A stretch of DNA of 64,000 nucleotides from assembly GCA_964019135.1 (NCBI GenBank), contig OZ025258.1, positions 9,257,961-9,321,960 of the forward strand, read 5' to 3'. A program made the translations under genes and the position numbers. Source of the DNA: Arenicola marina. Taxonomy: Eukaryota > Annelida > Polychaeta > Arenicolidae. The notes below the pieces were generated by a model that was not told the origin of the DNA, searched no databases, and saw only the letters and a program-made list of their open reading frames with translations. This document shows positions 1 to 58,384 of this stretch, one piece after another; position 1 is the stretch's first letter, and the number at the start of each line of letters is the position of its first letter.

Positions 1-1440
1 CACCACGCCGTGTCAGAAATTTGCCCAACACTGGCGAGTTGATTGATTGGTATACGATGGGGCCTTAAACTGCCTGCATATGATTAAACAGCTGCCCGCA
101 CGAAACTTTTTACGCCAGAAAAACCAAAAATCCAATATGGCGCATGACACGCAGTGGTATCGCCTATGTTGTGCAACGTTTAGTTGTCTCTAGCATGTTA
201 CAGGCGTAGCCCTGAGATGTCACAAATATATAAATTTACAGTTCCTTGACAAGGGCGTAGTACGTGCACGCCTGAGCAAACATTTCAAGATGGCGGAACC
301 GATAATGTACGGCCTTTGTATTTGCCTGTCCATCAACAACAATTTTTTTCAGTATTTCGATCGCATAACAAAACAACCACAGCGACAACAGTATGCGATT
401 AATCCCCGTCAACCGTGTTCATGGGTTACAGTTATATCCACAAGTAGAAATCAATTCAGGCATCTGTCAATTTGATAGCTTTAGCATTTTCTTCTTTGAA
501 ATTCCCGGATATGTCTCCACATACACCCAATATTAGGGTTTTCCATTCACTTCGTGGCTCCTTCCACTAATGGATATACATCCAGTGAAAACACCCGATA
601 GAGTCGAATCAATAGATGGCGCGGTGCATTATGGACATGCAAATCTACACTCTGTTACTCCACACAGCTGTGGCGTGACATCTGATACCAGAAGTCAGTC
701 AGGAAATGATATCTAGGCAACCTTTCGGCTCCATGGTCAGCCGATAGGGATATATAGAAGCCGAGAACCCAAGGTCGATACCTCAACACCAACACGGTCA
801 ATAGACGACTTCGCAAATCATCAGTTCAGATTATTCCACTGTGAGGCGCCATTGCATGTGCAATGCATTTTGGGTATTATAATGTCATTTGCGAGATGTC
901 AAGATGGCGTCATCGCATGACAACGTGTTTTGTAGACTCTTAAACATGCAATAGTGTCATGTATTAAACGGAAAAGTTACATAATCTGGATGTATGTTAG
1001 ACATGCTCATTAATTTTACACATGCCTTGCCAACAACCTGGACCTACTTGGTATTTATCTCCATAGAAACAATCAAGATAACATCCGAATATTTCCCAGA
1101 AATCTTTGCGCCAGTCACGTTTTTTTCAAGATGGCGTATAATTGCGAAGTTGCGAATGCTCGATCATAAAATCATAGCCTAAGGAGTTATACACAAGTAT
1201 GGTTGTTTTAGATATGATTCCTTCCTGTCTTTACATAGAGAAAGCCTGTATCGGAAATGCACTTAGGACATCTTCATTCTTCCATTCTGTGACGTCATTG
1301 TACGGGATAAAATATATTATTTTATATTTTATAGGTATACTCTACTACTGCGGCCAAATAATGTTAATCCGTCTTTTCCCCTTGCGGTCCCGGCCTATGA
1401 GGGTGGGGGATATTTGAACATTTACAATTTCTTTGCGCCT
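1..1440. other. Intergenic DNA, no gene seen
   Basis: No open frame longer than about 70 codons, no recognisable protein similarity and no tandem array was found on either strand. The composition is moderately AT-rich and looks like ordinary unique intergenic DNA. Unrecognised old transposon remnants cannot be excluded by eye. Confidence 0.5.
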
Positions 1441-1577
1441 CCCCCCCCCCCCCCCCCCAATACATACATACAGTTATATATATAAATACCTATCTTTCAC
1501 CCACTCTAATTCTTCGCCGGCAATTCCAGTGAATGTCAGCTCCCCCCCCCCCCACCACCCCCACCGCCCCCCCCCCC
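1441..1577. repeat. Poly-C tracts
   Basis: Two long C runs (about 1440-1458 and 1541-1577, the second broken by A) flank a short unique piece. Similar C or G homopolymers recur through the whole window, for example near 5563, 17520, 18464, 27958, 33550, 35212, 35625, 50780 and 60346. They are simple-sequence DNA with no coding meaning. Confidence 0.9.
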
Positions 1578-1609
1578 TAACCCTCAACCCCCCCGCCAAC
1601 CCGTGATGT

Positions 1610-1637
1610 GGCCTACGTGACTTAAGTCACGTAGGCC
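1610..1637. repeat. Perfect 28-bp palindrome
   Basis: The 14-base half GGCCTACGTGACTT is followed directly by its exact reverse complement, so the 28 bases form a perfect inverted repeat with no spacer. The half contains ACGTGAC, close to CRE or E-box-type protein sites. It may be a dimeric binding site or a small foldback. No gene starts nearby to favour a promoter role. Confidence 0.85.
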
Positions 1638-2057
1638 GTACAACTCCCCGGGCAAGATTAATCGAGTACATGCGCCTCATTAAACTGCCTTTGAACGATC
1701 CACCCGGCAAATCTGCTACGTCTAATTAATAAAGTCCGTCCACTCATCGGTGGGTACTGGTGGAGGGGGGGGGGGGACGGGTGAGGGAGTGGGCTCTTCG
1801 CGAAGGAATCCTTTCATATTGATGCTATTTATGTAACCAAAAGAGAGATTTATATTTCCTAAGCATGTTCTGTTTAAAAATTTGATATGTCGACTTGTTA
1901 TGTCGTTGCCATGGGCGTAATGGGGTCGGTCCCTCATCCCTTTGATCTGCGGCCTCTCTGAGCATCTGTCCCCCACAGACACGGTAACTCAGAGACAGGA
2001 GGGACTGCGTCACCGACGTGTCACGACATGTAACACATTGAGTTCCCTCTGCAATTC

Positions 2058-2324
2058 GGGGGACCGCCTCGATAGTTCAGTGGGTTAGCGCGCTCACATG
2101 GAGCGCTCTGGCCCACTGAAAGCCTAACGGCACGTGGATCGGTGGTTCGAGCCCCGTCTGTGGCCATGTCTGTGTGGTCGCAGGATAAAGATCTCATGTC
2201 ATGTCCTTCTTCGAAAAGAGTAGGGGGAACCCACTGGCACTTGGCTCCGCTCTTCCATTCCTTCTCCCATTCACGCGATATAACCGTAAGTGGTTAAAGC
2301 GTCCTGAATATACAACCAACCAAC
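2058..2324 (+). mobile_element. tRNA-derived SINE, copy 1 (fullest)
   Basis: The head looks like a tRNA gene, with an A-box-like stretch (TAGTTCAGTGGGTTAGCGC) and, about 80 bases later, a B-box (GGTTCGAGCCC), the internal RNA polymerase III promoter. A unique body follows with GTGGCCATGTCTGTGTGG, AAGAGTAGGGGGAACCC and TTCCTTCTCCCA, then AAAGCGTCCTGAA and a tail of short ACCAACCA repeats. Two further copies in this window (3943-4160 minus, 35836-36042 plus) share these blocks in the same order, which establishes a dispersed family. SINEs encode no protein and depend on LINE machinery. The match to a named family was not tested. Confidence 0.85.
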
Positions 2325-2844
2325 GATGTGGAATTCGATGCAGCAGATCCAAGAGGCGTAAATATGCAACATATATATCATCACTGACCTTAACTCAAAC
2401 CTCAAACTATTATTAGCGAGCAGAAACCAAGACCTGTCGACAGGTCACCGATACGACGACTGCAGTGAGCGCTGTCGGTCACAGATATGCTTACTCAGTC
2501 GCAAATGCCGCGATGCAAATCGTATAACTTAAACCAAGGCAAAGCTGCAAATCCATCGTCTTTTGTAGAGGGACGGATGCCAACCAAATGTGTGCACGTG
2601 ACCTTCATCCCCAGGTGGCATCACTCGCGAACTCCCTCATCCCGGGTCAGCAGCGTGGCCGCAGTTGTGCGGGCAATAACAATATGGAAAACTAACGAAG
2701 CATTACTGTAACAATAAATGTCAGTAATATCACGTCTGTGTAAGTGTAAAAGGCTCATGTCATCATTGCGTCGTTACACTGACAGCTTGCTGGCTCGTAA
2801 AGCGGTGATCATCACGGCGGGAGCGTGTGACAGAATGGCGCAGA

Positions 2845-2932
2845 TTAAAGCAATATATTCCGTACTTGTTTGTCTTGCCAACCTCTTCCCCATGTCAAAT
2901 AAGTATATTCTGTCTTGAATTTAAATCCTGAA
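2845..2932 (+). repeat. Dispersed repeat family R4, copy 1
   Basis: About 88 bases match the reverse complement of 34324-34412. Shared blocks include CCAACCTCTTCCCCATG, AATAAGTATAT and GTCTTGAATTTAAATCCTG. The second copy abuts the assembly gap, so the true length is unknown. No protein or terminal repeats could be assigned. Confidence 0.75.
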
Positions 2933-3068
2933 CGCCGGTGGGCTATCCGGAGAGAAGCAATTTGGTCACCGGAGCAGAAGTTGGTGGCCGGCTTTATATC
3001 CCTGCGCGCCTGTTCGCTGTTATGGTATTCTGTGTGATGTCGACCGCGGCTCGCTATCACGTCCGCGC

Positions 3069-3466
3069 TATGGAAGGCCAACCTATGCATAAACGTCGAA
3101 GAACCAACACGTACAAAAACCAACACGTAGGTCTGTAACACGTTACCGTTTTAGCCTATCACAGCGCTGGATTTGATACACGAAGCAAATGTACACGTCA
3201 ATCAGCTACGTGTTAATTTACTACGCCGAGGTTGAACCATTAATACGGTTACGTCGAAGTTCGACGTACTATTTTAACGTCGAACTTCGACGTAGTTTTC
3301 AGACGTCGAACTTCGACGTACTTTTTGGACGTCGAACTTGTGTACATTTGCTTCGTGTATCAAATCCAGCGCTGTGATAGGCTAAAACAGTAACGTGTTA
3401 CAGACCTACGTGTTGGTTTTGTACGTGTTGGTTCTTCGACGTTTATGCATAGGTTGGCCTTCCATA
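3069..3466. mobile_element. MITE with 128-bp terminal inverted repeats
   Basis: The arms at 3069-3196 and 3340-3466 are near-perfect reverse complements, beginning TATGGAAGGCC and ending GGCCTTCCATA. The 143-bp core contains three copies of short palindromes built on ACGTCGAA/TTCGACGT. The six bases CCGCGC flank both ends (3063-3068 and 3467-3472), a candidate target duplication, though the site is low in complexity. There is no transposase frame, so it is non-autonomous. The high arm identity suggests a recent copy or strong foldback. The superfamily is not assigned. Confidence 0.85.
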
Positions 3467-3942
3467 CCGCGCGCGATAAAACTAAACCGCGCAGTTTTAT
3501 GTTGAAATTGTTGTTTTACAGACTCAGAGATATAAAACATATATGCATCATAATTTTCAGATACTTTTAGTCTTGATTCTAAAGTGTAAAAAATCTAAGA
3601 TGGCGCATGTAAGTATATTGCGTTAAAGACAACACGTGGAATCTACGTCACTGCAGCGTGTTTAACGGGTTGTGGCTCATCGTGTTGTCAACATTAGTGG
3701 TTGCCAGATTCTTCATCTCTCACAGAACGAGACCTTGGCGAGATGTAAGCACCATATGTTCATGTAGATGAACGTATTTGTTTTACGTTTATAAAGGGAC
3801 ACAGGCCTTTGACGGTGACATGAAGTCGGGCGCCTGTGACACACTCTTTTGGTCGTCTAGGTAACAGACACTATACTTCACACGTATCCCCCATGGCCGG
3901 TTTAATATCGGCGGGATCTGAGGGTGTCGGGGTGTGACTCGC

Positions 3943-4160
3943 TTGGTTGTTTGGTTGTATATTCAGGACCCTTTCACCACTTTTGGTCTTATCGCGTCAA
4001 TGGGAGAATGAACGAAAGAGTGGAGCCATGTCCCCGGGGGTAACATCCTACACTTTTGCAAAGAAAGACATGGGATCTTTATTCTGCGACCACACAGACA
4101 TGGCCACCGCGGGACTGGAACCATCGATCCTCGTTCCGTTAGGCTCTCAGGTGACCTGTG
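3943..4160 (-). mobile_element. tRNA-derived SINE, copy 2
   Basis: Read on the minus strand, this repeats the SINE body of 2058-2324: AGCCTAACGG, a B-box-like GGTTCCAGTCCC, GTGGCCATGTCTGTGTGG, ATGGCTCCACTC, TTCTCCCATTGACGCGAT, then GGTCCTGAATATACAACC. The A-box half of the tRNA head is not recognisable, so the copy is 5'-truncated or diverged there. Confidence 0.8.
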
Positions 4161-4169
4161 ACTCGTGAA

Positions 4170-5720
4170 GAAACGTCTCGAAAAGTGGTCCATATATTCT
4201 TTGTTGCGGCTTGCGGGGAGTAATCCCGACCTACACACCGTATAATGCAGTAGCGTCCCTGACACATTGCGAATGCAGTGTCAATATATATGGTCTGGAG
4301 GCTGCGGCCCTTGTGTCTGCAGGCGAAAGCAATCTACACATGATATATGCTGTCGCCCGGTCGCCATTCTTTGTCGGCCATCATCAGTAGGGGTTTGGAT
4401 AGGGTTTGGGGTGGATGGCCACACCCGACCCAGGCATATTTGAAAATCGACATTTGACATTGACCCCCGAATTCATATGACACATATTTTTTTTTTAAAC
4501 GGCACTGAACTTAGCCGGAAAGTGACACTGAATGTCCTGAAAAATCGACAGTCGACCCTGCGAATTGTGAAAAATCGACGCTGGACACTGGACCCCCCCT
4601 TCCAGACCCCTATCAGTGTTCACAGGGTTCATGATATATAATGAATCCACTGCAGGGTTCATTATATATGTTCGGACCCTTGGTTGTAATATAAATGTGC
4701 TATTGACCGGTCGTTTTTTCATGCTGGGGTAAAAATGTGGCTCAGCATAGCTCACGTGTGACTCACGCCTATCATTTTACAACAATACACTATGTCTTGA
4801 GCTCTACCATTGAAGAAGGACCCAATGACCTGATCTGCCGTTAAATTAGGTGCCAGCATGGGACTCGGTACAATATATTACTCCATATATATTATATATG
4901 GAAACAATTAAGTTGCCTCTAATGCGTTAATGACAAAATTGCTGTGTCAGCGGTCGCCGCAATTTGCCATTAAAGCGTTTACAAGCAATTACCCGGATGC
5001 GGATATTGTCCGGTGAGGGTTTAGCCAACAACAGTGGTCTGTATTCACGACCTCCTGCCAGTGGGGAACCCAATGCTTATCAATCATGGAACGAAGTGTA
5101 CAGTAATGCCCGTAAGGCCCTCTCCGCCCTCCGCTTTTGCGACATTCAAACGCAACGGCCCAGGCGAAATGTCACGTGGTAATGAAAGTATGACGTGATC
5201 ATAAGTCTGCGTCGCCATGGCAATCCCGCTCCCCGGAGACCAAAGCTCTCCTCTCGCCTGGCGCGAGAACGAGAACGCGGACGAGATTGAAATAGTCTCA
5301 CAGACATAGCCAAAGAAAAAAAACACAAGGCTTATCAGTGTGGGAGTGCCTATATTACAGGGTATGGCTTAAAATCCAGGCCACGGCTCTCTCTACTCTC
5401 CGATACGCCCACCACAGACAATAAAAAGTGAGCTAACATAGTCTCTAGATGTCGGTATTTGCATCCATCTTCTGCCTGAGGAGGCAACACACGTGGCGGA
5501 ATGGTAATCGCTCTCCCATACACTTGCCGGGGGGCTGTACCGTGGGAGACAGCCCCCCGCCCCCCCCCCCCCCGCCGCCAGCGGCCTCAGTGTCTTCCGC
5601 ATCCGGCGTCCGTAACGCTTCCTCGTCGTTAAGGGGAGAGGTCCATGAGAGGTAAACGGGCAAGGTCGTAGCAAGGTCAAAGGGAGATGTAAATCAGGGA
5701 GACCTGGAAAGTTTAGCCTA
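4170..5720. other. Intergenic DNA, no gene seen
   Basis: Apart from a short dispersed-repeat fragment (4738-4870) and a poly-C run near 5563, nothing is recognised. The open frames are short and overlap one another on both strands, as expected by chance in GC-rich DNA. Confidence 0.5.
4738..4870 (+). repeat. Dispersed repeat family R1, fragment
   Basis: The stretch with GCTCACGTGTGACTCACG, CCTATCATTTTAC and GAGCTCTACCATTGA resembles 28440-28520, where GCTCACGTATTACTCACG, CCTACCATTTAC and GGGCTCTAGCATGGA occur in the same order. It is therefore an old fragment of the repeat also seen at 28060-28560 and 58385-58860. Confidence 0.55.
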
Positions 5721-19630: not shown

Positions 19631-22573
19631 TCAGAGATCAGCGAAGTCTACTCTCCCGCCATTCGGGTATCGCTTCTCGACAATGGCCAACAACATCTTG
19701 TCGGCCGCCTGGGCTGGACTGCACGTCACTCCCTGCGTTCGCCGCTGTCAGAGAGGGAGGGACAAGAATAGGAGATATGGTAGTAATGGCAACATGGTAA
19801 TAAATGTAGCAAGAGGTTAACATGTTAAAATATTATTAAGAGGAAATATCTATACAACGTTAATCGTTTATATGTTAAAACGATTCTATTTCATACATTT
19901 TATACTCATGTTTCCGTCGACATTATTAGCCCATTGATCCACATGCTAAGGTTACCTTGCAATATGTCGGCTTACCTTCTCCAATCTGTTGACGACATCC
20001 TGGTCTTTCTCTTTGCCGGTTACGAGGAACTCCGCCACCATCCTCGTTTCCACCGTGCCAGGACCGAAGTTAAAGGCCCACACCGAACTCTGTCAACACT
20101 CAAAGCAAGACCCAAGTTAAAGGCCTACACCGAACTCTGTCAACACTTAAAGCAAGACCCAAGTTAAAGGCCCACACCGAACTCTGTCAACAGCCAAAGC
20201 AAGACCCAAGTTAAAGGCCCACACCGAACTCTGTCAACAGCCAAAGCAAGACCCAAGTTAAAGGCCCATACCGAACTCTGTCAACAGCCAAAGCAAGACC
20301 CAAGTTAAAGGCCCATACCGAACTCTGTCAACACTCAAAGCAAGACCCAAGTTAAAGGCCTACACCGAACTCTGTCAACACTTAAAGCAAGACCCAAGTT
20401 AAAGGCCCACACCGAACTCTGTCAACAGCCAAAGCAAGACCCAAGTTAAAGGCCCACACCGAACTCTGTCAACAGCCAAAGCAAGACCCAAGTTAAAGGC
20501 CCATACCGAACTCTGTCAACAGCCAAAGCAAGACCCAAGTTAAAGGCCCATACCGAACTCTGTCAACGGCCAAAGCAAGACCCAAGTTAAAGGCCCACAC
20601 CGAACTCTGTCAACAGCCAAAGCAAGACCCAAGTTAAAGGCCCATACCAAACTCTGTCAACACTCAAAGCAAGACCCAAGTTAAAGGCCTACACCAAACT
20701 CTGTCAACAGTCAAACCAAGACTCAAGTTAAAGGCCGTCATCAAACTCTGTAAACAGCCAAAACAGGATCGAAGTTAAAGGTGCACACAAAACTCTGTCA
20801 ACAGTCAAACCAAGACTCAAGTTAAAGGCCCACACCGAACTCTGTCAACAGACAAAGCAAGACCCAAGTTAAAGGCCCACACCGAACTCTGTCAACAGCC
20901 AAAGCAAGACCCAAGTTAAAGGCCCCCATTGAACTCTGTCAACAGTCAGAACATGATCGAAGTTAAAGGTTCACACCGAACTCTGTCAACAGTCAGAACA
21001 GGATCGAAGTTAAAGGTTCATACCGACCTCTGTCGACAGACAAAGCAAGACCCAAGTTAAAGGCCCACACCGAATTCTGTCAACATTCAAAAGAAGACCC
21101 AACACATATGTAATCGTTAGGTAGTACCAACAAATAACACTCAGTTTTGGTTCTGCCCATGTCATATTATTATTATAGATATAATACAGACTTAGCACGA
21201 AGTGTACAGTGACAGCTATGTTAAAGCCGGGGCTCACATCGTCGTTGACTATGTCCCGGATGAAGGCTTCTCGCGCCGTTTTGCCCATGGCGTAGGCGAC
21301 GGTGCTTTTGACAGAACGGCGGGTGGCGACCGAAGTGAGGTTAACCAGCAACACCTGGCAATCTGGACGCTTGAAGGTCCTGACGAACCAGGCGCTCAGG
21401 GCCACCATGGACGTCACGTTCAGACGAAGGTACTTCTGTAGAACAAAAACATCTGATGTTCTGAATCAGTTACACACAGAGATATAGGGAAAACCAGCTG
21501 ATATATCTAACCAGTAAGGGGTATTGAATATTTGACTTGGGGTGAAGGCAGAGAGAGTAAAAAAACAGACAGAGTCAGAGATATATATGGAAAAGGACAG
21601 AAGGGACTAGACAGACACAGAGCGAGGGCGACCCTATCTCACCAATCAATTTCCACTGATACATGTCCCCATTATAACCAGATACTGCGATGGGCATTTG
21701 ATAAAATCATTGTGCTTCCGCCTTTTCCCTTAGACCGAGGAGCAATAAATTGCTCTGTTTCACAATTTTTGTTCTCATCAGTGGAGATTACATCGAGTTC
21801 CGTGGCTTCCTGTTCCCATGGCAGCTTGCAGAGAAGTGTGCCAGCATTATTGATCAAGACGGCTTGGCGGAAGGCCTTAGGGTCCACCGTCTCCAACACC
21901 GCGCCCGTCATCTCGTCAAAGCGGTCAATCTCGGACAGGTCACACGTGACCAGCGAGACTTGAAGAGAACGGAAAAAACACAATTAGGACTAAGCATGAT
22001 GTTTCCTTATTTTAATTGATTCATGATTGATGATGCAAATGAATGATAGAAAAAATGGCGTCCATATTACTGCCTTTGCAACCGTAACGTGCTTTTCATA
22101 TTAATGGAATCTAGATATTGAATAGACCCTCAGAATGTATGAGCTCCAACTGACATGACGCGGAGATAGATATTTACTGGATGGCCGTGTGCAAAAAGTA
22201 TTGAATGTCATCATGGTGAAGTATCTCCATCCACGCGACGACTGGGGCCGAAGTTCTCACCTGGGACATCGGACTCTTGTCTGGATCTTTTCTCTGGTGT
22301 CGATCAGATCCTGGAAGGACTCTTTTCGTCCAGTAAGGACGAGACGGGAAGTCTGAGTACATGCAAGTGGTCCTTACCTTGGACATCGGATTCTCTCTGG
22401 ATCTGTTCTCTGGTGTCGCTCAGGTCCAGGATGTCCAGAAGGACGAGACGGGAAGCCTGCGATTGTTTGTTCTTTTGGATATGTTTAGCGATTGCCACAG
22501 CGGTGGCTTGGCCGATCCCCCTGGCGGCGCCCGTGATAACTACGAGGCTCGGCACTTGGAAGGCGTTCTCCAT
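19631..22573 (-). CDS. SPR: Sepiapterin-reductase-like short-chain dehydrogenase, five exons
   Basis: Predicted enzyme of 272 aa, near the usual ~261 aa of sepiapterin reductase, which makes tetrahydrobiopterin in the cytosol using NADPH. Exons (minus): 22573-22378, 21958-21792, 21435-21208, 20089-19976, 19744-19631; all junctions GT/AG and in phase, total 819 nt with stop. Seen: TGAARGIG nucleotide-binding motif (residues 14-21), INNAG (101-105), catalytic Ser156, Tyr169 and Lys173 (YAMGK) matching the spacing of the human triad, NFGPGTVETRM corresponding to the SPR NYAPGPLDT block, and a C-terminal GGRVDFADL resembling AHVDFYDK. The ATG at 22573 gives the family's short N-terminus. The exon-3 donor (ACT/GTACAC) is the least certain boundary. 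Intron 3 is mostly a 47-bp array that includes the exon-4 acceptor. A related carbonyl/sepiapterin-type SDR remains possible. Confidence 0.85.
20043..21105 (-). repeat. 47-bp minisatellite carrying the exon-4 splice acceptor
   Basis: About 22 units of 47 bp (plus strand: CACACCGAACTCTGTCAAC, AGCCAAAGCAAGACCCAAG, TTAAAGGCC) fill intron 3 of the reductase gene. Read on the gene's strand, each unit contains TTGACAG followed by AGTTCGGTGTGGGCCTTTAA, exactly the acceptor and first bases of exon 4. The terminal unit at 20043-20089 is the real exon start, where TTGGGTCTT of the repeat becomes the coding TTCGGTCCT. The array therefore seems to have grown from the intron-exon junction. Units 5' in the gene (near 20700-21060) are more diverged. 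Confidence 0.9.
22256..22350 (-). pseudogene. Duplicated, decayed copy of the exon-1 3' end with donor site
   Basis: Within intron 1 of the reductase gene, about 95 bases repeat the last part of exon 1 and its donor region (22376-22462): blocks GACACCAGAGAA, AGATCCAGA, GTCCGATGTCC and the distal CCCGTCTCGTCCTTCTGGA-like end align. The copy carries a one-base length change relative to the real exon, so it would not read in frame, and its donor is CAG/GTGAGA. It is a local tandem duplication of an exon edge; use as an alternative exon is unlikely but not excluded. Confidence 0.7.
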
Positions 22574-53457: not shown

Positions 53458-53877
53458 ATGGGCCGCTTACAGTCGTCCGGGGTACTCCCCCAAACACGCT
53501 ACGTCGTTGATGACGAGATCGATGACGTCAGGTTCGTGGATTCCCCGCACGAAGTGACAAACGCCAGTGACCTGGGGGAGGAGTCACAGGAGGGCGCGGA
53601 CTGGACGGGAAACCCCTTCGACCGCCCGATCATCAAGTACTTCACCATCACTGGGATCCTCGCCGTCATCGCCTTCGTCGTCCTCATCATCTACTACGCC
53701 ATCTCCTACGTCGAACAGAAGAGAGCGCTGCAGCAGGACCGGCAGTCCCACTCCATGGTCCACGTGGGCAGCGGGTCCAACGTCCGGAAGGGCATGTCGT
53801 CATCTCACGAGACGTCGTCCTCGGGCGCCAGGACCAAGTTCGCCGTCCCTCTCATCGTCCGGGCGGCCAACAAATAG
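53458..53877 (+). CDS. Small single-pass membrane protein, 139 aa, unrecognised
   Basis: Single-exon frame of 139 aa with a good start context (AAAC before ATGG) and strongly C/G-ending codons, unlike the surroundings, which argues for real coding. Residues 1-58 are acidic (VVDDEIDDVRF, EESQEGADW) without a signal peptide; residues 61-84 form one transmembrane helix (YFTITGILAVIAFVVLIIYY); residues 85-139 are basic and Ser-rich (EQKRALQQDR, SSSHETSSSGARTK), so the C-terminus is predicted cytosolic. The last 97 bases, including the stop, are repeated twice more downstream. It does not resemble a family I can name. It could be one exon of a longer gene, but the TATA box, ATG and stop fit a complete small gene. 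Confidence 0.65.
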   Translation: MGRLQSSGVLPQTRYVVDDEIDDVRFVDSPHEVTNASDLGEESQEGADWTGNPFDRPIIKYFTITGILAVIAFVVLIIYYAISYVEQKRALQQDRQSHSMVHVGSGSNVRKGMSSSHETSSSGARTKFAVPLIVRAANK

Positions 53878-54071
53878 CGTCAGGAATGGCATGTCGTCAT
53901 CTCACGAGACGTCGTCCTCGGGCGCCAAAATCAAGTTCGCCGTCCCTCTCATCGTCCGGGCGGCCAACAAATAGCGTCAGGAAGGGCATGTCGTCATCTC
54001 ACGAGACGTCGTCCTCGGGCACCAAGACCAAGCTCGCCGTCCCTCTCATCGTCCGGGCGGCCAACAAATAG
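53781..54071 (+). repeat. Tandem triplication (3 x 97 bp) of the gene's 3' coding end
   Basis: Copies at 53781-53877, 53878-53974 and 53975-54071 each run from CGTC(C/A)GGAA to GCGGCCAACAAATAG, so each ends with the same stop codon. They are nearly identical, with a few substitutions (GGCGCCAGGACC, GGCGCCAAAATC, GGCACCAAGACC). Only the first is in the reading frame of the gene; the others lie in what should be its 3' UTR. A remnant CGTCACT starts a fourth copy. Confidence 0.95.
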
Positions 54072-54404
54072 CGTCACTATGTGACCAATGTGGGAGATCC
54101 AGGCGTTAGACAAACGCAGGCGGCATGGCTGTCTCTCAACATGACGGTCACCATCCACAGAAATCCTTGAACGGCGAAAGCACTGCGTTCTGACCTGGCC
54201 CAGATTGAGGAATTGGAGAAAGAACCTCGGCAGGGACTTGTTTATTTTTCGTATGAAGTTTTCCATATTGTATGTGGTTTGCTGTGGCGGTCATACACCG
54301 TGACAAGTTGGACACAGGTATGCCACGTCTCAGCTGTGAATCTTTGTATATCTCTCGAATAGTCACGAGGGAATATCTACGGGTTGAGTGTCAGGGCTTG
54401 TCAT
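54072..54404. other. Probable 3' flank of the membrane-protein gene
   Basis: About 330 unique bases between the triplication and the LINE 3' end. No AATAAA or ATTAAA was found on the plus strand here, so the polyadenylation site of the upstream gene is unresolved. Confidence 0.45.
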
Positions 54405-56848
54405 GTAATAGTTTATTTCAAAGCAACAATGAGCCCGAGGCCCTCGTGTTGAAAAGATGCAATACACATAATGACATGTGGCGGGTTCATACAATAGTAC
54501 ACTGGAACGTCATTCAGGTTCTCTCATCTTGCTGGCCAGATAAACATATTCAGACAATCTGTTCTGTAATTTCGTGCTCTGTGACATAACTAGTGCTAAA
54601 AATTTATCTTTATTTGGTAGTCTCCAATAATACGGTGGGATTAAGCTCTCTCTGAGATTATCATGCAAGCGATATACAAGAACAAAGTGGACTTCGTCAT
54701 CTAACAACCCGCACTCGCTACACAACCTCTCTTCCACGGGCAGTGGCTTTGGCTTGTGCCATCTCCCAGTTTCAATGCGGAGGCGGTGGCTAAAGGTTCT
54801 AAAGGTTCTGTTCTTTTCCACATTAGCAAAGTATGAAGGAAGCATGGGCAAAACACTATATTGTAAATATTGCGTAGCACGAGAGGTTTCCGATAGCTCG
54901 GCTTGTACCGTTTGAAAATAACAATCCTTCGCCCGCTGCTTAAAGAGGTACATGAACGCCTGGATATCTCAAACGGACTGGCAGAGCCAGACATCCCCCA
55001 TCCCCAGCGACATTAGCGAATCACGTACCAGCAACGCCCAGTTACGTCGTCCTAACTCTAAATCTTCCAACAGCACCTTATACAATCGCTTAACATACCG
55101 TGAATCATTCAAATGTATAACCTTTACCCAGTAATTGATTATTTTTACCAACCTCTGAGTTTTCATGTCTAATCTGCCGAGTTCACTCCTAGCTATATGG
55201 TTTGGGGTACTGGTTTTAACCTTCAAAGATTTTTTCAAGTATTTAGTATGAATTCGTTCGATTGCCTGGCCAGTATCGAAACCCCAAACTTCTGCACCGT
55301 AATTCAATATTGGGCTTATCAATTTGTCAAATAACTCCATACGATGGGTAGGACGGGAGAGTGAAATTTACAGACATATTTCTCCATCTGGAATAAAGCC
55401 TTCGTAGCTTGATCAGCCAAAGTTTTCTGCGTTTGGTAAAATTTGCCAGAAGAGGACAATACAACGCCTAAATAACAGAAAGTGTTAACTATGTCGATTT
55501 CTTCCCCGTTGTGATAAAATCTGAGGCTTTTACGTAGACTTCCTCCTTTGTGAAAAATCATCACTTTGCTTTTGCCACTGTTCACTACTAATTTCCACTC
55601 GTCACAATATCGTTTTAAGGCATCTAATGACTTCTGTAGCTCTTCCTCAGATTCGCAGACTAAGACAGCATCATCAGCGTACAGCAATAAAAATAACTTC
55701 GTTTGTCCTATGGAGATTCCTTCTACCCCTTGTCTCCTAATATATTCCTCCATGTCATTTATATACATAGAAAACAAGAAGGGCGACAGTGTCTCGCCTT
55801 GCCGAACTCCAATAGCGGAGTCGAAGCTTTCGGAGGTCGTGCCATCACAATGTAAAACTTTGCACTTGACCTGTTCGTACATATTCTGTATAACCTTCAA
55901 AAGCTGTCCCCTTAATCCATTTTTGATTAACTTAAACCACAGACACTTCCTATTTACTCCATCAAAGGCTCTTCTGAAATCGATAAAAGCACAATATAGA
56001 CGACGCCCCTGTTCTAAAGCATGAGACACAAGACTTTGAAGTACAAATATCTGATCGACAGTACTGTATGTTTTACGGAAACCTGCCTGTGCTTCCAACA
56101 GGATACCGTATTCATCAGCCCAGTTATCTAGACGATTATTAATAACTCGTGTAAACAGCTTGCCCAGTGAGCTCAATAGTGTGATACCTCTGTAGTTGCT
56201 AGCCATGTCGATATCTCCTTTCTTATATAGCGGCATAATTAAACCTTCCGACCAAACACTAGGGAAGCAACCTTTCATCAAGAGATGGTTAAAAAGTTTC
56301 GTTATGGGGATGACAAGTATATCAATTCCGTGTATAATAAACTCGTTGATAATCATGTCACATCCTGGAGTCTTGTTGAGTTTTAATTGTGAGACCGCGT
56401 TACGGATATCTTCATACACAAACTCAGTGCTAAGCTCTAAATATATTTCGTCAACATCGCCATCTACAAGGCTCGCTACTGACTCGTCAACGTCATCCAC
56501 ATCATAATCCGGGGTATTTAAGCCCTTAAAATATTCATAAAAGACGTGCGAAGAAATGTTATTCTTACGCCGCGATTTCACTCCTTTTAATAACTTCCAA
56601 TATAGTTTGGCGTTCTTATACCGTGCTTGAAGTAGGGCATGTGTATCTTTCTTCTCTCGTTCCCACTTATGTGATCGGACTGCTTCCTTAAAGGCCTTTC
56701 TAGCTGCTATCATATCACATCTATCCTGATCAGATCCGCGCTTTCTATATAAATTCAGACACCTCATGAAGCTGTTTCGCTTTTGTTCAACAGTAGCGCT
56801 GTAGCATGCTGGTCTAAGCTTTCGCGTGTTGCTTTTCGTGCCCGTCAT
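54405..56848 (-). mobile_element. 5'-truncated non-L1 LINE, second copy
   Basis: Minus-strand LINE whose 3' end shares GTTTATTTCAAA with the element at 23503-26528 and whose protein resembles it throughout, so both come from related families. It lacks the endonuclease entirely; recognisable sequence starts at about 56848. It has fewer breaks than the first copy and is therefore probably younger. Confidence 0.85.
54510..56848 (-). pseudogene. LINE ORF2 fragment: reverse transcriptase and C-terminal region
   Basis: The 509-codon frame 56848-55319 holds an entire RT domain: KTPGCDMIINEF, SNYRGITLLSSLGKLF, AFIDFRRAFDG, GVRQGETLSPFLF and LYADDAVL, with both active-site Asp present. After a frameshift near 55330 it continues in 55340-54969 (LISPILNYGAEVWGF, IERIHTKYLKKSL, matching the same block of the other LINE), then through an in-frame TGA into 54953-54510 (CSECGLLDDEVHFVLVYRLH, Cys/His tail). 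One frameshift and one stop were found. The N-terminal ~100 residues are a charged linker, not endonuclease. Confidence 0.85.
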
Positions 56849-58384
56849 GATGAGGGGGGTACATCCTTGTCGCGTTGGGGGGCTGTTGATATGCCAACAT
56901 TCACACAGTTAAGTTTATAAATTAATAATTTATCATTTCGTTTATTTCGGTTGTTTACTGAGACAATAACCTCCAAGGGTGAAACTTGACTACGGTGTGT
57001 GCAAAAAAAAAGAGCAAATGACATGATTCTCGTGCGGGGTCTGGGTCCAGACGACGCGATTTGACTTTGGTTGTGAAAGTCCTGGCCGGAACAGGAAATC
57101 TTACCGTCTCGACAGGCGCTAGGACAATGCCATCGGCTTGTTCGTGAACCATATGTCTTGTCGCGTGGAATAGAATGTGTTCTATCCGCTCGGCCAAACC
57201 TATAAAAATACTCTGACCAATCAGAGCATGTCTTTTTGTCATGCGATTCGGTAATAAGGATATGACCTACGGGATACTCGCACGGTATGGACAGTGATGT
57301 TTCAACAGCCATGGGGAAAAACCTATGAGACAGATCTATAGGAAAAACCTAACGACCGGGCGGGGCTTAACGCAGGCACCACACGATCTCACAGCTATGA
57401 TACACACAGTGGACACGTAACCAGTCCACCGTGATACGAAGATCACACGACGTCCCGTACGATCCTGACATATCACACGATATCACAGAAAAGAACAAGC
57501 TATCCCAATATTTTATAGTATATAAGAAAATATCACATGCTGTGACAGCATATCTCGATATTTCACGCCAAAGTAAGACCAAATATAACAAAATATCATA
57601 CGATATGACAGCATATCTCAATTTTCCTCTTCAAAGTAGAAACAAATCCCACACAATTCCACAAATATCATCACATATATCGTTAGCTATCACAGGATTA
57701 TCACAAAAAGCTCACGAGCAGTCGCGTCCAACATTCACATTGTATATATAGGGCAGTTGCGTTATATGTACCATAACAACATATTTATTTGTCTCGTGTA
57801 TGAATTTAGTGGGAAATGAAAATTCTAGCGGGCAAACAGGTGATAAATAAACGTAAAGGCCCTATATGTGCCAGTCACTCTGCGTTTATTGCTTCCTATG
57901 TCTACCATATATATATATATATATATATTTATATAGTTGACCAAAGGTAGCACGTATTGATATATATATATATGCTAAACTATAGGTATGCCCATAAACG
58001 TAGGTTTATATATATATAACGACTGAGCCATAAGCCTGTGTTTACGTCCACAAACCGATAAACCCCCGTTTCCTTTCCGTTATATCGATGTCCTGTAGGT
58101 CATTGTCGTGTGGTTTGTGTTGTAGTTCTACCGCTTACCCTTCTACATCACCACCGATAGCCCCCATTGGGCGAGCTGACTGGCTGCATTATGGACCGCG
58201 ATGGACGTGTTTTCCCGTTATTATCGGCATGCATCCATCACACCGCAGGGCCCGAGCGAAGGTGCCCGGATGTTAACTGGTACCATGACGCTATATATTT
58301 GGCCTCGCCGTGTCCGTCACAGCGCTCGAGCTGGGAGGGAGGGGGGGGGGGCACTACAAAGACTTAGCTATATATATACATGGG
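56849..58384. other. Intergenic DNA with ATATC-rich and (AT)n stretches
   Basis: 57460-57700 is rich in ATATCAC/GATATC words with a loose ~63-bp repeat (GACAGCATATCTC twice). 57908-58020 contains (AT)n microsatellites. A 155-codon minus-strand frame ending at 56845 has no recognised domain and is not accepted. Confidence 0.5.

Follow-up and report, generated by a model that had tools for sequence, protein, structure and literature searches.

In the 64,000-nucleotide stretch of annelid DNA analyzed here (the window), a minus-strand gene carries a long row of near-identical 3' splice sites in front of its fourth exon. The locus raises two related questions: how the splicing machinery would find the one acceptor that keeps the reading frame, and whether the row of decoys controls the gene or is a by-product of minisatellite growth.

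Results and Discussion

The gene and its acceptor array

Contig C11, to which the window belongs, comes from an assembly of 867 Mb in 762 contigs. The gene extends from 22573 to 19631 in five exons, with an open frame of 262 codons and canonical GT-AG introns throughout (Table 1). Its translated protein matches PF00106 (short-chain dehydrogenases, SDR) in Pfam at 68.4 bits, and its best PDB matches are sepiapterin reductases (1sep, E 1.7e-20 over residues 10-261 of 262). The translation also contains YAMGK, which fits the SDR pattern YxxxK and which we take to be an instance of the catalytic motif. By near-full-length similarity the gene is a sepiapterin-reductase-like member of the SDR superfamily, with the corresponding enzyme activity as a prediction. 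Mammalian sepiapterin reductases align without gaps across the exon 3/4 junction in the three alignments shown, which supports a start of exon 4 at 20089 with the acceptor TTGACAG/AGTTCGG (the slash marks the splice junction). Alternative exon 3 donors further downstream (GCT/GTCACT and ACT/GTACAC) were dropped in favor of GAT/GTGAGC, which looks stronger by eye, is kept in the paralogue described below and leaves the sepiapterin reductase alignment gap-free.

Table 1. Positions in the window of the exons, the repeated exon edges and the associated signals
Feature	Position	Strand	Basis or remark
Exon 1	22378..22573	(-)	ATG to AAG/GTAAGG; open frame, canonical donor
Exon 1 3' part with donor, original of a two-copy boundary duplication	22370..22459	(-)	Self-comparison, E 9e-17
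Extra copy of the exon 1 end in intron 1, donor CCCAG/GTGAGA	22253..22355	(-)	Self-comparison, E 9e-17
Exon 2	21792..21958	(-)	Gene model
Exon 3	21238..21435	(-)	Donor GAT/GTGAGC; gene model
Intron 3	20090..21237	(-)	1148 nt; 161 nt once the 21 extra units are removed
Candidate original branch site CTACCTAAC	21116..21124	(-)	40 nt before the AG of the first unit; conserved in the paralogue
47-bp minisatellite, 22.1 copies	20062..21102	(-)	TRF, 90% matches, score 1578
First 'exonic' bases of the 21 decoy acceptors	20136..21076, every 47 nt (20136, 20183 ... 21076; 20089+47k, k = 1-21)	(-)	AG before each
Exon 4, 114 nt	19976..20089	(-)	Donor AAG/GTAAGC; gene model and homology
Exon 5 including the stop codon	19631..19744	(-)	Gene model

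The repeat unit consists of 19 nt from the end of intron 3 and 28 nt from the start of exon 4. A sequence-only reading of the locus had described a unit of about 47 bp holding the acceptor and the start of exon 4, which stands, and had given its exonic part as about 20 bases, which is too short. The interval named there, 20043-21207, contains the array together with flanking exon 4 sequence and single-copy intron; the array proper occupies 20062-21102. Its count of about 22 near-identical 3' splice sites in a row agrees with the 22 acceptors that we find in register, namely the real one (exon 4 from 20089) and 21 upstream, with AG in 22/22. The last copy of the repeat (k=0), which is the functional one, is formed by the 28 nt that open exon 4 (20062-20089). 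That the real exon is the last unit, as had also been proposed, is borne out by the 262-codon frame, the GT-AG introns and the gap-free homology, and only this last site keeps the frame.

Units k1-k4 are identical to k6-k9, which points to duplication of a block of at least four units at a five-unit lag beside exon 4. The units that depart most from the consensus, at 6-9 positions, are confined to the distal half of the array (k14-k20), although other units there are close to it. Two motifs, CTACCTAAC and CCTTTAAC, are candidate branch sites by their resemblance to the general branch-site motif, with distances taken from the sequence. The former stands ahead of the array in both gene copies, its distance to the end of the first AG being 40 nt in the window gene and 35 nt in the paralogue. 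The exon-derived CCTTTAAC lies inside each unit, 27 nt ahead of the AG of the next one. Since CCTTTAAC can serve as a branch site, every unit would form a plausible complete 3' splice site.

None of the 31 distinct unit variants of the window array falls within the 11 of 47 columns occupied by ACAG and CTTTAAC, which has a chance of 2.6e-4 if variation is uniform and the motif columns, here picked after the data were seen, are taken as given. The longest invariant run in this array covers 10 columns (CCTTTAACTT, P 0.010), and the longest run in the array of the paralogue is unremarkable (P 0.72). The invariant columns may reflect repeated copying from the functional end of the array or some selection on the units. 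Testing of 191 nt for a special RNA structure of the repeat gave nothing notable (z -1.0). Recursive or stepwise splicing was set aside, as AGGT occurs in 1/22 units only (k=20).

The window as a whole (1-64000) is very rich in minisatellites, with 54 TRF rows and several arrays longer than 1 kb. One of them, at 53781-54076, has a 97-bp unit in 3.1 copies and repeats the end of an open frame with its stop codon (..IVRAANK and stop); it is a copied coding end and not a splice edge. A 529-codon open frame on the minus strand at 55319-56908 resembles, by eye, the reverse transcriptase of a non-LTR element.

A paralogue with the same array

Searching the genome with DNA of the array region, by a method that skips very common words, located it in at least two places, the window and a paralogue whose exon 4 starts 117 kb from that of the window gene. 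The paralogue is the same gene with a 265-codon frame, and an array of seven units is present at the same boundary. With the TRF score of 1578, this recurrence at the same exon edge places the array far beyond chance. In the four exon-proximal decoys of the paralogue GGGCGG/AG replaces TTGACAG/AG, with the AG two bases on remaining, and the two distal decoys keep their AG, so that the in-register AG is present in 2/6. Intron 3 without its extra units measures 162 nt in the paralogue and 161 nt in the window gene. Because the array is common to both copies, it is most likely older than the gene duplication. The difference between seven and 22 units, together with the lost AGs, indicates that array length is free to vary and that intact decoys are not required.

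Divergence between the two copies is uneven. Identities of exons 1 to 5 are 0.974, 0.696, 0.924, 0.868 and 0.837, respectively, and the contrast between exon 1 (97%) and exon 2 (only 70%) suggests gene conversion. The end of exon 1 in the window gene is itself duplicated into intron 1 (Table 1); the same self-comparison of the paralogue locus did not find this duplication.

Consequences of decoy use and choice of the last acceptor

The predicted product of each of the 21 decoys was translated from exons 1-3, the upstream units and exons 4 and 5. Each of the 21 isoforms runs into a premature stop, at a distance of 124-1042 nt ahead of the last exon junction. Nonsense-mediated decay usually follows a 50-55 nt rule. 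Since no stop comes closer than 124 nt to that junction, all 21 decoy transcripts are predicted decay targets under this rule. Two detailed expectations of the sequence-only reading were confirmed by translation: a site one unit upstream adds 47 nt and shifts the frame, and one three units upstream adds 141 nt and restores the phase, with a stop met after 27 residues.

Between positions -27 and +8, decoy k=5 does not differ from the real site, and the 17-nt tract contains 10-12 pyrimidines in the decoys and 10 at the real site. Local strength therefore cannot account for choice of the last site. The part of exon 4 beyond the repeat is 66% purine with 7 GA[AG] motifs in 86 nt, compared with 45% purine and 2 such motifs in 94 nt for a doubled repeat unit. 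The donor of exon 4 (AAG/GTAAGC) is close to consensus. What sets the last copy apart is thus its surroundings, as no other copy is continuous with the remainder of the exon. Exon definition combined with decay of the failures would be the simplest account of last-site choice.

Survey of exon edges in the same genome

Exon matches of four Pfam families provided a sample of 34 loci with 82 exon hits and 164 hit ends. SDR and ADH contributed 20 loci with 21 hits fetched out of 33 hits listed, and kinesin and myosin 14 loci with 61 hits among the matches listed, picked for exon density before inspection. At one locus (L040) a listed hit with several in-frame stops was left out.

Kinase hits were also listed for the survey but did not enter the sample. 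Kinase and kinesin hits with in-frame TAG and TAA were noticed on small contigs (C330, C390, C443, C465, C504, C536, C652 and others). In-frame TAG and TAA are as in ciliates, and these contigs are probable contaminants in the assembly. Five equal-scoring kinase hits about 8.5 kb apart at C5:5402476-5437356 represent a recent tandem gene array.

A local repeat with a partner outside any exon hit runs across 14 of the 164 hit ends, which belong to 12 exons, and each of the 14 has a plausible splice site inside the repeated stretch, as judged from frame and motif and not from full gene models. A boundary array is thus not unusual in the sampled parts of this genome. This count, and the published mirages of amphioxus discussed below, do not support the earlier view that expansion at an exon boundary is unusual. 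TRF reported 114 arrays in the survey loci, 14 of them overlapping a hit end; 13 are common to the two lists, locus L019 appearing in the local-repeat list only and one array of L029 in the TRF list only. None of the 114 arrays at the 34 loci lies wholly within an exon hit.

The intron-side copies often keep their splice signals. AG is kept in 91/115 aligned decoy acceptors (nine arrays: window, paralogue and seven surveyed) and GT in 156/158 aligned decoy donors (eight arrays: exon 1 of the window gene and seven surveyed). Without the window gene and its paralogue the counts are 68/88 for AG and 155/157 for GT. Every aligned decoy is on the intron side. For the L029 acceptor the real site was located only with a shortened motif, and at L031 AG is kept in 0/5 decoys. 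A kinesin exon at L035 (C14:21549001-21556200, positions 1043-4510 of the locus) has boundary-copying arrays on both flanks, with AG in 35/45 aligned upstream decoy acceptors and GT in 29/29 aligned downstream decoy donors.

Two further arrays may be recorded here. At L024 (C18:35706501-35715500, positions 244-4179) an array of about 76 units of about 50 bp begins directly at the donor of an SDR exon, with GT in 75/75 aligned decoys. An acceptor array with 73-bp units is found at an SDR exon of L019 (C10:8332001-8341000, positions 2600-4230), apparently interrupted by about 800 bp of inserted sequence whose ends are GGGCTGTACAGT / ACTGTACAGCCC; we take this exon to resemble 3-ketodihydrosphingosine reductase.

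Are exon edges random targets of a minisatellite-rich genome, or are they preferred birthplaces or refuges of these arrays? The latter possibility is compatible with the explanation that we favor for the window array, and we would give it somewhat less than even odds. With random seeds of one unit, 2.7 overlaps are expected compared with the 14 observed by TRF (about five times), and 0/5000 simulations reached 14; stricter two-unit seeds give an expectation of 6.35 (2.2 times, P 0.0033). Seed length is assumed in both cases, and the original seed may exceed the unit length of today. BLAST repeat families agree, with 16/92 spanning a hit end compared with 5.8 expected. Array edges are also densest near exon ends, at 20-29 per 100 bp from -60 to +30 of the 164 ends and 6-15 deeper in introns, in bins chosen after the data were seen. 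Base coverage points the other way: just 19/164 hit ends fall in local repeats, which make up 25% of other sequence and 5.2% of exon interiors. A first impression that exon edges are hit at the background rate was not upheld by simulation, although base coverage alone still reads so. The sample comprises 82 exon hits from only four families, and the end of a Pfam hit only approximates that of an exon. The concentration of arrays near exon ends suggests that chance alone does not govern where they are seeded or survive.

Function, decay or artefact

We favor the explanation that the array is a 'mirage', a by-product of minisatellite growth that is most likely functionless and is tolerated through exon definition and decay favoring the innermost site, with a probability of about 0.8. 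A 47-bp segment that bridged the junction of intron 3 with exon 4 would have been tandemly duplicated into a minisatellite, which would then have grown by duplication of units and blocks, most likely before the gene itself was duplicated. The productive copy would be solely the unit fused to exon 4. The spliceosome would pick this last acceptor because it is paired, over the short exon, with purine-rich exon sequence and the donor downstream, and transcripts spliced at decoys would be cleared by nonsense-mediated decay. Two observations stand against this reading. Invariance of ACAG and CTTTAAC is not predicted by a purely neutral array, although the paralogue, in which four units have lost ACAG, points in the opposite direction. 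The clustering of arrays at exon edges, in turn, fits poorly with seeding and survival that are wholly random.

The same invariance of the AG and branch-site-like columns in the window array, and the kept AG of 21 decoys that all lead to predicted decay targets, would also fit a functional poison-splicing element in which the number of units sets the ratio of decoy to productive splicing and tunes the enzyme level through decay. We consider such an element very improbable, since the paralogue has seven units and has lost the register AG in 4/6 decoys, and since a like architecture is seen at both donors and acceptors of unrelated exons, in kinesin, myosin and other SDR genes. Its presence at unrelated genes, on both kinds of splice site, fits a genome-wide by-product better than gene-specific control. 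Length-dependent control through the isoforms, which the sequence-only reading had offered as an option, thus finds no support: 21/21 decoy isoforms are truncated and predicted to decay, the paralogous gene is intact with seven units, and most of its decoys have lost the in-register AG.

It is slightly less probable still that the gene is a decaying copy whose splicing matters to nothing. A second, similar copy does lie 117 kb away, yet the 262- and 265-codon frames are intact, both copies have canonical splice sites and both score above the Pfam cut-off. Least probable of all is an assembly artefact: tandem arrays are hard to assemble and the exact number of units may be wrong, but the units differ among themselves in 31 distinct variants and a diverged array is present in the paralogue.

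Comparison with known systems

In NAGNAG and other tandem acceptors, several equivalent acceptors compete. The window array differs from these in its spacing of 47 nt instead of a few nt and in that all choices but one truncate the protein.

The closest parallels are the mirages of amphioxus, a name that the cited passages of PMC3087553 and PMC3902484 trace to a 2002 paper. These passages describe mirages in Adh3 and the globins BflGb6 and BflGb9, to which PMC3902484 adds troponin C and PGBD5, and report that splicing is left undisturbed. As characterized there, and like the window array, mirages are minisatellite-like tandem copies of an intron-exon boundary, either acceptors or donors, in which many copies keep AG or GT and the authentic exon belongs to the array. 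The unit of the window gene extends across an exon-intron boundary, the authentic copy of which terminates the array, and AG is kept in 21/21 decoys (2/6 in the paralogue); by this anatomy the window array is a mirage. It has a 47-bp unit in 22 copies, compared with 150-160 bp and 6 and 3 units in two haplotypes in the cited description of BflGb6. Within our one assembly, the nearest substitute for haplotype variation is the difference between 22 units in the window and seven in the paralogue. The window array also differs from the amphioxus cases in being common to a paralogue, in having many further cases in the same genome, and in its host, an annelid and not a cephalochordate.

The mitochondrial contig (C762, 15,942 bp) carries on one strand nad4L, nad4, tRNA-Val, nad1, nad3, nad2 and cox1, followed by cox2, cox3, nad6, cob, atp6 and nad5, with protein genes besides cox1 named by eye from their translations. 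For annelids PMC2639372 lists four rearrangements: nad6/cob following cox3, atp6 placed between cob and nad5, an exchange of nad5 and nad4L/nad4, and nad3 between nad1 and nad2. All four are seen in C762. By this gene order the host is an annelid, and amphioxus, the host considered at first, is rejected. Searching for the GFP family produced no hit, which carries no information because the controls produced none either.

Other systems share single aspects with the window array. In the cited parts of PMC2812944, variable minisatellites of human segmental duplications, with units of about 30 bp in about 4 copies, likewise occur in duplicated genes, some of them at an exon-intron boundary where they may form novel introns; there, exons and introns of young genes are modified, often with support for alternative transcripts, whereas the window copies sit inside an old intron and give 22 equivalent acceptors. 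Intron gain in potato RdRp, as summarized in PMC4974935, also involved a tandem duplication that crosses an intron-exon boundary and copies 3' splice signals. In that account one duplication produced a new intron, whereas the window copies stay in the old intron with no new intron or exon apparent. Intronic minisatellite arrays in an annelid gene are known from earthworm metallothionein, and the cited text of PMC12783039 describes them as within intron 1, not as splice-site copies. The literature that joins decoy splice sites, exon definition and minisatellites includes, in the parts consulted, human INS intron 1. A search of the literature on minisatellites, introns and splice sites found no report of a boundary-copying minisatellite in an annelid, which is weak evidence given its mostly open-access coverage. 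The structure itself was already described from amphioxus.

Conclusions

The frequency of mirages in an annelid suggests that any minisatellite-rich genome may give rise to them. They also offer material from which new introns could form, a role put forward for amphioxus globins in the cited passage of PMC3087553. The arrays are series of identical splice sites at differing positions and could be used to measure the effect of position alone on splice-site choice, that is, of how far a site lies from the exon body and from its partner. On a broader view that we hold tentatively, judging it a little more likely to be wrong than right, minisatellites preferentially arise or persist at exon edges, a large share of the genes have rows of decoys on the intron side, and their correct expression depends on choice of the innermost pair of splice sites. 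If this is true, the annelid genome would be a natural large-scale test of exon definition.
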